A stretch of 64,000 bases of DNA from Streptococcus mitis. Its GTDB lineage: Bacteria; Bacillota; Bacilli; Lactobacillales; Streptococcaceae. The DNA lies in contig CP014326.1 of NCBI GenBank assembly GCA_001560895.1, forward strand, positions 508,001-572,000. Direction: 5' to 3'. The notes below the pieces were generated by a model. It did no database searches and was not told the DNA's origin. It saw only the letters and a list, made by a program, of their open reading frames with translations. Positions 56,865-64,000 of the stretch are shown here, piece by piece. A program made the translations under genes and the position numbers. Numbering within the stretch: the first letter of the stretch is position 1; each line of letters opens with the position of its first letter.

Positions 56865-57542
56865 ATGCACAAGATTTTATTAGTAGAAGATGATCAGGTT
56901 ATTCGTCAACAGGTCGGGAAAATGCTCTCTGAATGGGGCTTTGAAGTGGTGCTGGTAGAAGACTTTATGGAAGTTTTGAGTCTATTTGTTCAGTCGGAAC
57001 CTCATCTGGTCCTCATGGATATTGGACTGCCTTTGTTTAATGGCTATCACTGGTGTCAGGAGATTCGCAAGATTTCCAAGGTACCCATCATGTTTCTGTC
57101 TTCGAGAGACCAGGCGATGGATATTGTCATGGCAATCAATATGGGCGCGGATGACTTTGTGACCAAGCCTTTTGACCAGCAGGTTCTTTTAGCCAAGGTT
57201 CAGGGCTTGTTGCGCCGTTCCTATGAGTTTGGGCGTGACGAGAGTTTACTGGAATATGCTGGTGTTATCCTCAATACCAAATCAATGGACTTACATTATC
57301 AAGGGCAAGTCTTGAATTTGACCAAGAATGAGTTTCAGATTTTACGCGTTTTGTTTGAGCATGCAGGCAATATTGTAGCTCGCGATGACCTGATGCGGGA
57401 ACTTTGGAACAGTGACTTTTTCATTGATGATAATACCCTATCTGTCAATGTGGCTCGTTTGCGTAAAAAATTGGAAGAGCAGGGCTTGGTAGGATTTATC
57501 GAAACCAAGAAAGGGATAGGGTACGGACTGAAGCATGCTTGA
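56865..57542 (+). CDS. OmpR-family response regulator
   Basis: A 225-residue response regulator. The receiver domain (~1-115) has acidic residues EDD (8-10), phospho-acceptor Asp52 (LVLMDIGLP), and Lys in VTKPF. The winged-helix domain (~125-222) includes LTKNEFQILRVLFEHAGNIVARDDLMRELW and NTLSVNVARLRKKL. It overlaps the kinase gene by 8 bp. The small kinase with two helices and no sensor domain suggests the BceRS type, which usually senses through an ABC transporter. In the pneumococcus the pair in this location is TCS01 as I recall. Confidence 0.92.
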   Translation: MHKILLVEDDQVIRQQVGKMLSEWGFEVVLVEDFMEVLSLFVQSEPHLVLMDIGLPLFNGYHWCQEIRKISKVPIMFLSSRDQAMDIVMAINMGADDFVTKPFDQQVLLAKVQGLLRRSYEFGRDESLLEYAGVILNTKSMDLHYQGQVLNLTKNEFQILRVLFEHAGNIVARDDLMRELWNSDFFIDDNTLSVNVARLRKKLEEQGLVGFIETKKGIGYGLKHA

Positions 57543-58509
57543 TTGGAAACAATTTTTTCTAGCCTATCTGCGTTCCCGTAGTCGTCTGTTTGTTTATCTG
57601 ATTTCTTTGACGTTTCTGGTCTTACTCTTTCAGTTTTTATTTGCCAGTTTGGGAATTTACTTTCTCTACTTTTTCCTGCTATGTTGCTTTGTAACCATCT
57701 TATTTTTCACTTGGGACATATTGGTAGAAATGCAGGTCTATCGTCAGGAACTTCTCTATGGGGAGAGGGAAGCCAAATCTCCTTTGGAAAGAGCCTTGGC
57801 TGAAAAATTAGAAGCGCGTGAGATGGAACTCTATCAGCAGAGGTCAGATTCAGAAAGAAAACTGACGGATTTGCTGGATTACTATACCTTGTGGGTCCAT
57901 CAGATTAAGACCCCCATTGCAGCTAGTCAACTCTTAGTTGCAGAAGTAGCCGACCGCCAACTGAAGCAGCAATTAGAACAGGAAACTTTCAAGATAGACT
58001 CCTATACCAATCTAGTTTTACAGTACCTGCGTTTAGAAAGTTTCCATGATGATTTGGTCTTAAAGCAGGTTCAAATTGAGGACTTGGTCAAGGAAATAAT
58101 TCGTAAATATGCTCTTTTCTTTATTCAAAAAGGACTAAATGTCAATCTACATGACCTTGATAAAGAAATCGTTACGGATAAAAAGTGGCTATTAGTGGTC
58201 ATTGAACAAATTATCTCAAACAGCCTCAAGTACACCAAGGAAGGTGGTCTGGAGATTTATATGGAAGGCCAGGAACTCTGTATCAAGGATACAGGAATCG
58301 GGATAAAAAATAGTGATGTCCTCCGAGTCTTTGAACGTGGCTTTTCAGGATATAATGGACGCCTAACTCAGCAGTCATCTGGCCTTGGACTTTACCTATC
58401 TAAGAAAATTTCTGAAGAACTGGGTCACCAGATTCGTATCGAGTCTGAGGTCGGAAAAGGAACGATAGTGCGGATTCAGTTTTCTCAAGTGAACTTAGTC
58501 CTTGAGTGA
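57535..58509 (+). CDS. Intramembrane-sensing histidine kinase
   Basis: A 324-residue sensor kinase. Two membrane helices (~18-38 and 42-62) are joined by a tiny loop, so there is no extracellular sensor. The dimerisation/phospho-acceptor helix has His122 in LWVHQIKTPIAASQLL. The ATP-binding domain follows with N box EQIISNSLKYT, G1 IKDTGIGIKNSD and G2 SSGLGLYLSKKI. This is the BceS/intramembrane-sensing architecture seen in bacitracin- or peptide-responsive systems. No BceAB-type transporter adjoins it in this window. Confidence 0.92.
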   Translation: MLDWKQFFLAYLRSRSRLFVYLISLTFLVLLFQFLFASLGIYFLYFFLLCCFVTILFFTWDILVEMQVYRQELLYGEREAKSPLERALAEKLEAREMELYQQRSDSERKLTDLLDYYTLWVHQIKTPIAASQLLVAEVADRQLKQQLEQETFKIDSYTNLVLQYLRLESFHDDLVLKQVQIEDLVKEIIRKYALFFIQKGLNVNLHDLDKEIVTDKKWLLVVIEQIISNSLKYTKEGGLEIYMEGQELCIKDTGIGIKNSDVLRVFERGFSGYNGRLTQQSSGLGLYLSKKISEELGHQIRIESEVGKGTIVRIQFSQVNLVLE

Positions 58510-58736
58510 GAAGAGACAATGAGTTTTTACCCAATCTCTTTTTGCTATATTTCAGGATATTTGAAGACTGTTTTTTACAAAACCAATAATAGAATTTTTA
58601 ATACGGAATATAGTATAAATACTGGTTCAAAGTGAAGTTTTGTATGCTTTATACTTTTGTTGAGTATAAAATCTATAAACTAAGGGTGAATTACAAAAAT
58701 TAATTTAAGATGAAGTGAATTGTAGACTTGGGGGGA
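58510..58736 (+). other. AT-rich stretch between the kinase gene and the maturase remnant
   Basis: A weak stem (AAGAGA/TCTCTT, 58510-58550) may end the kinase mRNA. No motif of a radical SAM N-terminus (CxxxCxxC) and no convincing precursor peptide is visible. If a maturase gene once stood here, its 5' part has been deleted or scrambled. Confidence 0.4.
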
Positions 58737-58931
58737 ATGTCTCCTATTCGATTTCAGAATGAATCGTTGATACAGGATTAAAAGAACTGCAGCTTTCTTT
58801 TTATTTTGAATGATAGTAAAAACTGCAGTACTTGTGTGATTTACAATTATTGCACTCAATGTCCGAGTATCGCACTATCTGAAATAGGGAATAGTAGAGA
58901 TTGTTCTGCGATATGTAAAAAAACGCATTAG
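58737..58931 (+). pseudogene. Cysteine-rich remnant resembling the SPASM C-terminus of a radical SAM peptide maturase
   Basis: Frame starting at ATG 58737 reads 14 codons, meets TAA at 58779-58781, and continues in the same frame for 49 more codons to TAG at 58929. The second part contains NCSTCVIYNYCTQCPSIALS, then a Gly, CSAIC and KKTH: a C-x2-C-x5-C-x2-C-x13-C-x3-C pattern. This spacing is very close to the C-terminal auxiliary cluster-binding region of SPASM radical SAM enzymes (CX2CX5CX3C...C). It ends 15 bases before the ABC transporter start, the usual place of the maturase gene in peptide-modification loci. No N-terminal SAM domain remains. The identification is pattern-based, from reading this frame by eye. 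Confidence 0.55.
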
Positions 58932-58946
58932 TAAGGAGTATCGTAT

Positions 58947-60458
58947 ATGCTACCATATCTTAAAACTATTAGATGGTATCTCTTCTTTAATTTTCTTTTT
59001 GGTGTAGTATCGAATATCTGCACAGCTTTGTTACCGTATTTCACGCAGGCATTAATCAAAGGGGATTATCAAGTAGCTCTATATGGTTACTCTATGTCAG
59101 TGGCTGGCTATTTGAGTTGTAACTATATCCAAATGATACTTGATTGGAAGCAGGGGATTATCTTTTCGACTACTTTGAAAAATGAGTGGTTTCGTTCACT
59201 TCTGGGACTCAGTCACCACGATTTCAAGCAGAAAACAGTAGCAGAGTATATTTCCTATCAATCTAATGACCTAGATTCGTTGGAAAAGGATTACCTTCCT
59301 CCATTGATGAGTTTTATCAAACAAATTTTACGTATCATCATTTACGCTTTCATTATTAGCAGAACAATTAATCCTATTGTATCATTGATTTTAATCTTTT
59401 CCACTGGAATTAGTATTCAAATTCCTAAAATCGTTGGGAAGTTGACCGCTAATCGCAGACAGGTTTACTTGAAAAAACAAGGAGATTACTATCGAACTTT
59501 GGAGGATTTGCTCATGGGACATCATTTGGTAAATAAACTAACTATGTCGCATTTTTTGAATCAACAAAAGAGTTCTCTAAAGAATTTGCAGGATAAGTAT
59601 TTTAAGTATGGTTTGACAAAAATTACTGGCATCTTATTGACAGGTGTTTCTTTTGAATTCATTAGTCTTGTTCTGTTTATTTATTTAGCCTACTCTCTAT
59701 CTCACCAGCAACTCGGTATTCCTGAGGTGGTGGCGAGTTTCGGATATATTAATGCTTTTTCTGAACCAATACAGGAAATCCTTTATGATTTACAAATGTT
59801 AGAGTCCGTAAAGCCTGTAATCAAGAGTTTTCAAAACATTGTTGGGAGACCCGTTTCAGTTCAAGCACCTCAACATTCTTTTGATACGATTACTTTGAAA
59901 AACATTTCCAAACAAATGGGAGAATCAAAATTGATAATTACTTCCGCTACGATTCAAAAAGGGGATAAAATTGCGCTTATTGGTAAGAATGGGTCTGGAA
60001 AAAGTAGTCTTCTCAACATTTTAAATGGAACAGATGAAGATTTTGAAGGACAAATTGTGCTAGATGGGCTTGTTTTGGACCATCTTTGGGGAAGATTCGG
60101 TATGATTCTGCAACAAGAACATACATTTATTTCAAGTTATGAAAATAATGTAACGCTATTCAATAGTTTCAATGAAAAATTCAGAGAAGAAGATTTTGAA
60201 AAAATTCCACCACAATCCCTGTCAGGTGGTCAGCAACAACGAATGTATTTAAATCGTGAGAAAAATCGTAAAAATCCATTGCTTATCCTAGACGAACCTT
60301 TCTCTGCCTTGGATACTAATCAGTTTAAAATGGAATTGGAAAGAGTTCTGGAACTACCAAGTGCCGTCATTGTTACTTTACATCGCCAAAACGAATTATT
60401 AAGTAAGTTTGACCAAGTTTGGGAAATTAAGAATGGAGAACTTGTAATTTTGAAATAG
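58947..60458 (+). CDS. ABC half-exporter with shortened nucleotide-binding domain
   Basis: A 503-residue exporter subunit. The transmembrane domain (~1-285) has six predicted helices and no N-terminal peptidase. The ATPase domain (~315-500) shows Walker A GKNGSGKSS, Q-loop MILQQEHTF, signature LSGGQQQR, Walker B LLILDEPFSALD and H-switch TLHR. Only about 33 residues separate the Q-loop from LSGGQ where exporters usually have ~60, so much of the helical subdomain is missing in frame. RBS AAGGAG. Preceded by a maturase-like remnant, it may have exported a modified peptide. Whether it still works is uncertain. Confidence 0.8.
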   Translation: MLPYLKTIRWYLFFNFLFGVVSNICTALLPYFTQALIKGDYQVALYGYSMSVAGYLSCNYIQMILDWKQGIIFSTTLKNEWFRSLLGLSHHDFKQKTVAEYISYQSNDLDSLEKDYLPPLMSFIKQILRIIIYAFIISRTINPIVSLILIFSTGISIQIPKIVGKLTANRRQVYLKKQGDYYRTLEDLLMGHHLVNKLTMSHFLNQQKSSLKNLQDKYFKYGLTKITGILLTGVSFEFISLVLFIYLAYSLSHQQLGIPEVVASFGYINAFSEPIQEILYDLQMLESVKPVIKSFQNIVGRPVSVQAPQHSFDTITLKNISKQMGESKLIITSATIQKGDKIALIGKNGSGKSSLLNILNGTDEDFEGQIVLDGLVLDHLWGRFGMILQQEHTFISSYENNVTLFNSFNEKFREEDFEKIPPQSLSGGQQQRMYLNREKNRKNPLLILDEPFSALDTNQFKMELERVLELPSAVIVTLHRQNELLSKFDQVWEIKNGELVILK

Positions 60459-60748: not shown

Positions 60749-61798
60749 ATGACCGGAAACTATTCAACACGTGAATACCGTGAGAAATTATATGATGATC
60801 TTCATGTTCGATTAAGAGATACAGTGATTTTGATGTGTGCGATTTTTATTGCCTCTATCGGCCTAAATATGAATTCAACGGCTGTCATTATTGGAGCCAT
60901 GCTGATTTCCCCTCTTATGACACCGATTGTTGGACTGGGGTTTGGTTTAGCTATTTTTGATACGCGTTTAATCAAGCAATCTCTAGAGGTTTTATTTACC
61001 CAAGTATTGGTTAGCTTGCTTGTCTCGGCTCTGTATTTCTGGATTTCTCCCTTATCTTATGAAAGTAGCGAATTGATTGCACGAACCTCTCCAACAATTT
61101 GGGATGTGCTCATTGCTATTGCTGGTGGGATAGCAGGTTTCATTGGTTCAAGGAAAAAAGAAGCAAACAATATCGTACCAGGAGTAGCCATTGCAACAGC
61201 TCTGATGCCACCTATCTGCACTGCAGGTTACGGTTTAGCTAATGGAAATGTACGATTTTTATTTGGAGCTCTTTATCTTTTCTTGATCAACTGTGTCTTT
61301 ATCATGCTAATCAACATTGTTGGAACAAGAATTATGATGAGAAAATCTCCCTTAAGTTCATTTAAAGAGCTAAACATTAAAATGAGAATTGGGTTGATAT
61401 CCTTGATTGTATTATTGATTCTTCCGGCTAGTTATTCAGCAATTACTTTGACGATAGATCAAGCGCGCAAAGAAGGGATCAAACAGTTTGTAGGAAAAGA
61501 GTTCGCCAATCACACGGTCATTAATCAAGTCTACAAATCAAGAAACAATGAGTTGGTCTTGACGGTTGTTGGAGATCCGATTTCAGAAGAAGAATTAGAA
61601 ACGCTCCACCAAAAACAAGCCTCTTACGGTATTCAATCTGTTCAATTGAAAGTCAATCAAGTTCATAATTCGACAAAATTAGACAGTGATTCGACCAAGG
61701 AATTTTATGAAACCATTAACAAGTATATCGATCAAAAACTCTCTGAAAAGGATTCACAAAAAGATCTCGTAAAAGAAAATGAAGCAGACAAGGATTGA
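60749..61798 (+). CDS. DUF389 membrane protein, copy 1
   Basis: A 349-residue protein of the DUF389/TIGR00341 family. The N-terminal half has about six membrane helices with the family blocks ASIGLNMNSTAVIIGAMLISPLMTPIVGLGFGLA and NNIVPGVAIATALMPPICTAGYGLANGN. The C-terminal part (~225-349) is soluble, mixed alpha/beta with a charged tail. The biochemical function is unknown. RBS AAAGGAG. A near-identical gene begins at 63014 on the same strand, separated by the channel genes. The two share very long identical DNA runs, suggesting recent duplication or gene conversion. Confidence 0.88.
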   Translation: MTGNYSTREYREKLYDDLHVRLRDTVILMCAIFIASIGLNMNSTAVIIGAMLISPLMTPIVGLGFGLAIFDTRLIKQSLEVLFTQVLVSLLVSALYFWISPLSYESSELIARTSPTIWDVLIAIAGGIAGFIGSRKKEANNIVPGVAIATALMPPICTAGYGLANGNVRFLFGALYLFLINCVFIMLINIVGTRIMMRKSPLSSFKELNIKMRIGLISLIVLLILPASYSAITLTIDQARKEGIKQFVGKEFANHTVINQVYKSRNNELVLTVVGDPISEEELETLHQKQASYGIQSVQLKVNQVHNSTKLDSDSTKEFYETINKYIDQKLSEKDSQKDLVKENEADKD

Positions 61799-62693: not shown

Positions 62694-63017
62694 ATGAGAC
62701 GTTTAAAAATGTTATGGCATATTATACAGGTTACGGGTTTTACTCGGTTTGCTCTGAGTTTTGTGACCTTTGTTTTTGGGTCAGGAGGCGTGCTTTTCCT
62801 AGTTGAACCTGCTATCACAAATTACGGAGACGGTCTTTGGTATGCTTTTGTGACTTCGACGACTGTCGGCTACGGGGATCTCCTAGCTGTGACCTTGATT
62901 GGAAGGATTACCAGTGTCTTCTTGACGATTTATGGGCTCATATTTTTTGGCTGTTTATCAGCTGTTATTATTAATTATTATACCGATTTAAATAAGGAAA
63001 GAGGAGAGGACAAATGA
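62694..63017 (+). CDS. Two-helix potassium channel protein (Ion_trans_2)
   Basis: A 107-residue protein with two membrane helices (~17-37 and 70-95) around a pore loop containing the selectivity filter TVGYGD (57-62), the KcsA/Ion_trans_2 architecture. There is no RCK or cyclic-nucleotide domain, so gating may depend on pH, voltage or a partner. A good RBS (AAGGAG) precedes ATG 62694. Its stop overlaps the next start (ATGA, 63014-63017), coupling it to the second DUF389 gene. It looks complete and would form a tetramer in the membrane. Confidence 0.88.
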   Translation: MRRLKMLWHIIQVTGFTRFALSFVTFVFGSGGVLFLVEPAITNYGDGLWYAFVTSTTVGYGDLLAVTLIGRITSVFLTIYGLIFFGCLSAVIINYYTDLNKERGEDK

Positions 63018-64000
63018 CTGCCAATTATTCAACACGGGAATACCGTGAGAAATTATACGATGACCTTCATGTTCGATTGAGAGATACAGCGATTTTGATG
63101 TGTGCAATTTTTATTGCCTCTATCGGTCTAAATATGAATTCAACAGCTGTTATTATTGGAGCCATGTTAATTTCACCTCTCATGACACCGATTGTTGGAC
63201 TGGGATTCGGTTTAGCTATTTTTGATACGCGTTTAATCAAGCAATCTCTAGAGGTTTTATTGACTCAAGTGTTGGTCAGTTTGCTTGTCTCGACTCTGTA
63301 TTTCTGGATTTCTCCCTTGTCTTATGCAAGTAGCGAGTTGATCGCACGAACCTCTCCAACCATTTGGGATGTTCTCATTGCTATTGCTGGTGGGATTGCT
63401 GGTGTGATCGGTTCAAGGAAAAAAGAAGCAAACAATATCGTGCCAGGAGTAGCCATTGCTACAGCTTTGATGCCGCCTATCTGTACTGCTGGCTATGGTT
63501 TAGCTAATGGGAATGTACGATTTTTATTGGGGGCTCTCTATCTTTTCTTGATCAACTGTGTCTTTATCATGCTAGCCAACATTGTTGGAACAAGAATTTT
63601 GATGAGAAAATCTCCTTTAACTTCATTTAAAGAGCTGAGCATTAAAATGAGAATTGGCTTGATTTCTTTGATTGTATTGTTGATTCTTCCAGCTAGCTAT
63701 TCGGCAGTTACTCTGACAATAGAACAAGCGCGCAAAGAAGGGATCAAACAGTTTGTAGGAAAAGAGTTCGCCAATTATACGGTTATTAATCAAGTCTACA
63801 AGTCAAGTAACAATGAATTGGTCTTGACGGTTGTTGGAGATCCGATTTCAGAAGAAGAATTAGAAACGCTCCACCAAAAACAAGCCTCTTACGGTATTCA
63901 ATCTGTTCAATTGAAAGTGAATCAAGTTCAGAACTCGCCAACATTAGATAGTGAAGCGACCAAGGAATTTTATGAAAACATTGACAAGTATATTGATCAA
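63014..64000 (+). CDS. DUF389 membrane protein, copy 2 (partial, runs off the window)
   Basis: An open frame of 329 codons to the window end with no stop, starting MTANYSTREYREKLYDDLHVRLRD. It aligns without gaps with the gene at 60749 and differs at scattered positions (for example Thr-Ala for Val-Ile near residue 26 and changes in the C-terminal soluble part). It keeps the LNMNSTAVIIGAMLISPLMTP and ATALMPPICTAGYGLANGN blocks. It overlaps the potassium channel gene by four bases and would be translated from the same message. The C-terminal ~20 residues are outside the window. Confidence 0.88.
   Translation, partial: MTANYSTREYREKLYDDLHVRLRDTAILMCAIFIASIGLNMNSTAVIIGAMLISPLMTPIVGLGFGLAIFDTRLIKQSLEVLLTQVLVSLLVSTLYFWISPLSYASSELIARTSPTIWDVLIAIAGGIAGVIGSRKKEANNIVPGVAIATALMPPICTAGYGLANGNVRFLLGALYLFLINCVFIMLANIVGTRILMRKSPLTSFKELSIKMRIGLISLIVLLILPASYSAVTLTIEQARKEGIKQFVGKEFANYTVINQVYKSSNNELVLTVVGDPISEEELETLHQKQASYGIQSVQLKVNQVQNSPTLDSEATKEFYENIDKYIDQ

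Follow-up and report, generated by a model that had tools for sequence, protein, structure and literature searches.

An ABC exporter retained beside a maturase scar in Streptococcus mitis, at the site of a decayed SSH-type RaS-RiPP cluster

In Streptococcus mitis, an intact half ABC exporter gene follows a short remnant of a radical-SAM/SPASM maturase gene. We read this locus as what is left after an SSH-type RaS-RiPP cluster decayed, and we lean towards the view that its exporter was kept for efflux immunity. The locus lies in a 64,000-nucleotide stretch of contig CP014326.1 (the window, in whose coordinates positions are given). The regulator, a PqqD-like protein, the radical-SAM enzyme rSAM1, the precursor and most of a second such enzyme, rSAM2, have been lost from the window, while the exporter frame and its ribosome-binding site are intact and nearly unchanged among 27 mitis-group genomes. 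What is new here is an orphan exporter that selection maintains, that has outlived its pathway more than once and that has moved horizontally. The genes for making the peptide were lost time and again while the exporter stayed, which singles out one gene and one peptide.

Results

The maturase scar

The rSAM2 scar occupies 58806..58931 on the plus strand, is a pseudogene of an SSH-type radical-SAM/SPASM maturase and ends in TAG. Its positions 58806-58928 cover some 40 residues of the enzyme's C-terminal end, with 80% identity over 40 residues to residues 319-358 of an intact maturase of 370 amino acids (tblastn, 2e-14); in the alignment to these residues of rSAM2 in locus L010, the stretch is 58806-58925. 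As this alignment to an intact maturase shows, the resemblance is not due to chance. The L010 homologue, the one intact maturase scanned in this way, matches PF04055 (5.9e-18) and PF13186 (2.7e-11); the scar, with only residues 319-358 left, lacks the radical-SAM core and a complete gene. Its identity comes from the intact relatives, since HMM scans of the 49-residue fragment alone left it unsettled: the best NCBIfam match was TIGR04340 (E 0.024; 13.8 bits, cutoff 400), and in Pfam SPASM was not matched, the single line being a RING-like zinc finger below cutoff (E 0.038). Taken with its relatives, the fragment is almost certainly a decayed SSH maturase.

A preliminary description of this DNA had taken one frame, broken by TAA at 58779, for the 3' end of a maturase gene. 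The frame, the stop and its cysteine pattern (C-x2-C-x5-C-x2-C-x13-C-x3-C) are all present in the sequence, as are the TAG (58929-58931) and the gap of 15 bases that separates it from the ATG of the exporter (58947). Only 58806-58928 of that frame is maturase, however, and 58737-58801 is antisense DNA of a tyrosine recombinase; because its first part is this remnant, the frame spanning 58779 was never a single gene. The recombinase remnant, the 3' end of the gene together with DNA downstream of it, covers 58532..58801 on the minus strand (last codons at about 58747-58801) and shares 84% identity with the region surrounding an intact recombinase copy elsewhere in the same genome. The recombinase domain was confirmed in the S. 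rubneri homologue, and full-length relatives occur at another site of the window genome (L002) and, in S. rubneri (L060), some 5 kb downstream of the intact SSH cluster. A 282-bp upstream repeat, considered as a generic mobile repeat, proved to be this same 3' remnant, and the idea was rejected. A phage or viral origin was also looked for and is unsupported: a 451-bp region was unmatched in the phage collection, and a 21-base scar pattern was unmatched among viral contigs. Beside the intact recombinase in L002, of the kind whose 3' end forms the window remnant, is a gene for a thioredoxin-like protein (the two at L002:208-1299 and 1711-2625), which presumably carries an LPQTG anchor.

The exporter

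The exporter gene (58947..60458, plus strand) encodes an intact protein of 503 amino acids with an ABC_membrane domain (PF00664, 3.6e-12) and an ABC_tran domain (PF00005, 1.7e-20); domain scans found no peptidase domain. It has the parts expected of a half ABC exporter: a TMD and an NBD, Walker A (GKNGSGKSS), the signature LSGGQQQR, Walker B (LLILDEP) and an H-loop (TLHR). In rubneri-type exporters an apparently altered Walker B was traced to a search pattern that was too narrow, and the motif is sound. In one parasanguinis-type orphan (L089, genome G260) the change is real: the signature reads LSAGQ instead of LSGGQ. Judging by its sequence this exporter may be failing; the same genome has a second, partial copy (L090).

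A presumed ribosome-binding site, AAGGAG, lies at 58933..58938 on the plus strand. The hexamer precedes the exporter in all 41 loci whose exporter start is complete, a set that leaves out the partial L070 and contains three genomes twice (L053/L096, L067/L091 and L061/L088). In intact clusters rSAM2 overlaps the exporter start and AAGGAG falls within the last codons of rSAM2; it is kept even in parasanguinis-type loci where tblastn detects no rSAM2 scar. This arrangement suggests that the 3' end of the maturase gene is the last part to go because it carries the ribosome-binding site of the exporter.

A promoter-pattern scan found no convincing promoter for the exporter upstream. The only promoter-like sites there on its strand are two that match at 9 of 12 positions (58561-58590 and 58626-58655), and no promoter is claimed, as the total for the region, 12, is close to that of shuffled sequences (9.0, sd 3.3). 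Terminator-like sites number 4 against 1.1 in shuffles (sd 1.2), three of them overlapping forms of one hairpin at 58729-58746, upstream of the exporter. With no convincing promoter and a terminator-like hairpin upstream, expression of the exporter can only be presumed, which counts against a role in immunity.

Intact SSH clusters in relatives

Intact rSAM2 genes lie directly upstream of orthologous exporters in 6 of 284 Streptococcus genomes, which bears out the earlier proposal that the fragment is the 3' scar of a maturase gene. These full-length maturases, with the same exporter downstream, are accompanied by a 41-residue precursor and an Rgg regulator. The order in the six relatives is Rgg, PqqD-like protein, rSAM1, precursor, rSAM2, exporter, and all six components were matched in the 6 loci, although the Rgg match is partial in L064 (127-293) and falls a little short in L063 (13-293). 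In L010, Rgg matches PF21259 (2.9e-51), the PqqD-like protein matches PF05402 (1.4e-5), and rSAM1 and rSAM2 each have Radical_SAM plus SPASM, with the 41-residue ORF between them; the components of this cluster are 100% identical to those of L066, from S. gordonii strain DD07. The precursor matches NF050043, 'SSH motif RaS-RiPP peptide' (1.3e-27; 95 bits, cutoff 45 for that of L010). Precursors over cutoff occur in 6 of the 284 genomes and any match at E<=0.001 in 8, with 0 of 14 controls positive. The preliminary description had anticipated an undescribed streptococcal RiPP; that expectation fails, as the family is already known as the SSH subfamily of streptococcal RaS-RiPPs in an excerpt of a 2026 review (PMC13361665). 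A crude pattern scan for an SHP gene near rgg in L060, L066, L046 and L049 gave only rgg-frame starts.

In the window genome itself we found no SSH precursor (NF050043, E<=0.001), no rSAM1 (E<=1e-20) and no Pfam SPASM match (E<=0.1; the control was found in 9 of 14 genomes), in agreement with the earlier view that precursor and maturase body are lost. Lacking a Pfam SPASM match, the genome shows no such enzyme whose product could feed the exporter. A match at G000:C1:954269-954463 (L135) in the same genome belongs to a lasso-peptide-like cluster with a PqqD-like protein (PF05402, 5.5e-13), next to what we take to be an asparagine-synthase-like cyclase and a transglutaminase-like start running into an ABC exporter.

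Several features of the relatives are recorded here as separate observations. S. sp. M334 (L068/L099, a draft) has an SSH cluster whose own exporter carries one in-frame stop, and it also holds an intact mitis-type orphan exporter (L052). Downstream of the SSH cluster of genome G056, on the minus strand (L010:11004-13948), are ThiF, JAB and SUa-2TM effector genes with a sub-cutoff E2, a set that resembles a ubiquitin-type CBASS defence module. The interval between SSH cluster and tyrosine recombinase in L060 (11813-16234) contains Toprim/DnaG-like, DUF5945, DUF3990 and short zeta-toxin-like genes, which suggests a mobile island.

Distribution across Streptococcus

An initial search for the exporter had found it in 5 of 98 genomes, its own included; the census covers 284 Streptococcus genomes, one per species. 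Matches to rSAM2 at E<=1e-15 occur in 36 genomes: a full rSAM2 of SSH type in 6 (G056, G182, G231, G239, G255 and G264), a C-terminal scar in 27, with G255 in both groups, and distant radical-SAM proteins only (25-31%) in the remaining 4. A further mitis-type scar, the 27th and a shorter one, was seen in G169. Full-length rSAM1 is present in 6 genomes, and the SSH precursor exceeds its cutoff in the same 6. The exporter was matched at E<=1e-60 in 43 genomes, and in 40 of them it is full length. By type, the full-length copies are 27 of the mitis type (99-100% identical), 8 of the parasanguinis type (78-79%) and 6 of the rubneri type (75%), G255 having two; G207, G214 and G215 have partial or contig-split exporters only. 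Every one of the 6 biosynthetic genomes has an exporter gene, the cluster copy in G255 with one in-frame stop. In 34 of the 40 genomes with a full-length exporter, precursor and rSAM1 are absent, and the exporter is thus intact without biosynthetic genes, as an orphan immunity gene would be. It is also dispensable, since of the 40 genomes that have a full kinase with at least 94% identity, 13 lack a mitis-type exporter (two of these carry a rubneri-type copy).

In a large protein database, the mitis-type exporter cluster has at least 1,670 members and the largest parasanguinis-type cluster among the 7,998 candidates listed at least 2,316, and among rSAM2 relatives with 80% identity or more the most populous clusters have 172, 50 and 30; all are raw member counts and carry sampling bias. 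An intact mitis-type maturase was not found in the databases searched, the closest protein being 75% identical to the longest scar, and the cognate peptide may for this reason no longer be made.

Steps of decay and repeated loss

Mitis-type loci run from response regulator and kinase through recombinase 3' remnant, Rgg remnant, rSAM2 scar and exporter to DUF389, the first two genes standing on the same side of the cassette. In the window the left flank consists of a gene at 56865-57542 (plus strand), presumably for the response regulator, and a histidine kinase gene at 57535-58509 (plus strand; kinase domain matched); the right flank is a DUF389 gene at 60749..61798 (plus strand). A second DUF389 gene at 63014-64000 is 93% identical to the first over the part inside the window; between them are a small ORF (62694-63017), in which we take TVGYG to be a potassium-channel-like motif, and other short ORFs. 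Mitis-group loci differ in copy number and truncation of the DUF389 genes.

The locus set displays the stepwise decay of a RiPP cluster. In S. mitis 17/34 and SK642 (L046, L049), rSAM2 residues 254-358 survive alongside a nearly whole Rgg gene that has one stop; most other mitis-type loci have an Rgg start with stops fused to rSAM2 residues 293-358, this common Rgg remnant being recognised by reading its sequence and not by a tblastn-type match; the window and G169 (L085) have residues 319-358 only. The component comparison across loci leaves out weak matches under fixed identity limits. A 12-mer, TATTTTGAATGA, marks the last step: it stands once in the window, at the deletion joint (58802..58813), and twice, 359 bp apart, in the allele of S. 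mitis BCC45 (L043), which retains an Rgg fragment and more of the maturase between the two copies. The two alleles are 98% identical on both sides of the joint, and this comparison of sequences accounts for the state of the window: the DNA separating two copies of TATTTTGAATGA was lost.

Cassette-free alleles join the kinase directly to DUF389. This junction is found in 3 of 10 loci without an exporter beside the kinase (L117, L125 and L113, the last a second kinase copy in G031, a genome rated 5% contaminated); in the other 7 the next gene after the kinase is one that we take to be thrS. In a tree of 41 exporter sequences, producers interleave with non-producers, and loss-only parsimony gives four losses, in the mitis clade, S. 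sp. SK643, the parasanguinis clade and G025. Rooted at its midpoint, the tree has no support values, and horizontal movement of clusters could alter the count.

Selection on the exporter and competing explanations

Across 27 loci the exporter has piS 0.0194 and piN 0.0015, a ratio of 0.076 (bootstrap 95% 0.039-0.140) that equals that of the adjacent kinase (0.076); the set comprises 26 of the 27 mitis-type genomes (G031 left out) plus L054, with 494 of 503 codons in four of the loci. Cluster-borne exporters of the rubneri type give 0.098 (5 loci). The preliminary description had termed the locus vestigial, which holds for the scar, a pseudogene, but not for the exporter, which is under purifying selection. 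We consider it very probable that the exporter is maintained by selection for some function. Synonymous diversity of the exporter is about 6-12 times below that of the flanking genes, with piS 0.21 for the kinase, 0.24 for the response regulator (22 loci; the match in L046 is split, and L024, L025, L027 and L042 are too short) and 0.13 for DUF389 (13 of 23 loci tried: full-length, at least 97% identical, ungapped). Sliding diversity drops past the kinase and increases again past the exporter stop, an increase owing in part to misaligned intergenic DNA; the columns between recombinase remnant and scar are sparsely occupied, and diversity there is not low. The low piS relative to the flanks indicates that the decayed block spread recently between species. 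The exporter is the sole part of this block shown to be constrained.

Purifying selection where all SSH biosynthesis is absent would equally be expected had the exporter been repurposed, that is, had it taken on a new substrate (another peptide, a signal or a lipid) after the cluster decayed. There was time for such a change, as the window exporter is 75-79% identical to cluster-borne exporters and dS is near saturation. Against this, the transmembrane part has not evolved faster than the ATPase part: it is the better conserved of the two in 4 of 4 comparisons, two of them with cluster-borne copies (80.0 versus 75.4% and 77.6 versus 70.7%), which suggests, from sequence, a shared substrate. 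Moreover, by loss-only parsimony four lineages keep the exporter alone, and four separate new uses are harder to explain. Repurposing is the main rival, a possible explanation to which we give distinctly less credence than to retained immunity.

The orphan could also serve in trans, exporting the product of intact SSH clusters that enter the same cell. S. sp. M334 would fit this, combining an intact SSH biosynthetic set and a stop-bearing exporter with an intact mitis-type orphan; but it is one genome in 284 and a draft, its stop may be a sequencing error, and the other five producers have no mitis-type orphan. We regard service in trans as improbable.

Slightly less probable still is a neutral relic, an exporter that looks conserved only because the block spread recently and is too young to have decayed. 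The low piS (0.019) does speak for recent spread, and the altered signature of L089 and the partial exporters in G207, G215 and the second copy of G260 may be taken as signs of decay. The adjoining scar, from nearly the same loci, provides the comparison. Over 26 loci (L094 left out for a gap) its piN/piS is 3.2 (1.4-12), a value above 1 that rests on few changes and is not claimed as positive selection; its total pi of 0.0215 (0.0178 without the two loci in an older state) is close to the piS of the exporter, as a freely drifting neighbour of equal age would show. It has changed at the neutral rate, mostly in amino acids: variable codons with synonymous changes only and with amino-acid changes number 2 and 20 in the scar and 41 and 17 in the exporter (Fisher p 6e-7). 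Nonsynonymous diversity of the exporter, by contrast, is about 13 times below its synonymous diversity, and all 27 mitis-type copies are full length and without stops. In addition, seven parasanguinis-type orphans (G025 included) have piN/piS 0.133 at a piS of 0.23.

That the scar itself functions, as a small Cys-rich protein or as a leader peptide for the exporter, is very improbable: its frame stays open in most scars and the ribosome-binding site of the exporter follows directly, but the piN/piS of 3.2, the replacement of the first cysteine of the motif by Gly in 11 of 26 mitis-type scars, the varying length (residues 254-358, 293-358 or 319-358), an internal stop and gap in G177 (L094) and the failure of tblastn to detect any scar in parasanguinis-type loci other than L072/L098, beyond the ribosome-binding site, all argue against it.

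Discussion

The orphan exporter bears on how RaS-RiPP producers protect themselves, or how their neighbours tolerate rivals' peptides. On the reading that we favour, an exporter kept for efflux immunity, the protein would still move SSH-type peptides, as the conservation of its transmembrane part suggests. A non-producing cell would then gain from ATP-driven efflux of modified peptides that enter the cell or its membrane, and these would come from rival streptococci that still make them. By analogy with known efflux immunity, we put the chances that its function is immunity to SSH-type peptides at roughly even. Perhaps the exporter block spread between species because it protects against related peptides of neighbours. 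A fuller version is plausible yet on balance doubtful. In it the exporter would fill the role of the missing immunity determinant for SSH RaS-RiPPs, and in the mitis group it would be the survivor of a cluster lineage with no intact member in the databases searched, spread between species as a scar-bearing immunity cassette.

Exporters of RaS-RiPPs need not protect. S. mutans is inhibited by its own tryglysin, with no immunity factor found in the excerpted account, and induction of the tryglysin operon, predicted transporter included, gave no immunity to tryglysin B (PMC8092268). For the SSH subfamily, the excerpted text of the 2026 review names S. equi zooepidemicus, S. mitis, S. parasanguinis and other streptococci as hosts, gives 'Function not characterized' and reports no SSH peptide with known activity or growth inhibition (PMC13361665). 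This review was the one paper listed for the SSH subfamily. Among the matches listed for literature on RaS-RiPP immunity, exporters and orphans, titles and abstract openings do not describe this locus.

The closest known system is the SSH subfamily itself (NF050043, PMC13361665): six relatives have the precursor, Rgg, a PqqD-like protein (RRE), two radical-SAM enzymes and the exporter, whereas the window keeps only the rSAM2 3' scar and the exporter and is a non-producing locus. By profile, the window exporter is nearest to GggC, the streptosactin exporter (NF050039; best NCBIfam match, E 7e-26, 91 bits), likewise a half ABC exporter of a streptococcal radical-SAM peptide, but falls far under the 750-bit cutoff and so is no member of that family. 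McjD, exporter of microcin J25 and also its self-immunity protein according to an excerpted source (PMC5641919), offers a mechanistic analogy for the putative immunity here, a RiPP exporter that protects the cell by efflux; it belongs to another RiPP class and host, and is absent from the 60 sequence matches listed out of 139. Orphan immunity genes and bacteriocin transporters have been described, in the excerpts available, for enterocins (PMC10598978) and for cibC in S. mitis (PMC13059744). There, too, an immunity gene is kept without the bacteriocin genes; those cases concern other bacteriocin classes, whereas in the window a decayed RaS-RiPP cluster has left its exporter gene, to which the scar is still attached.
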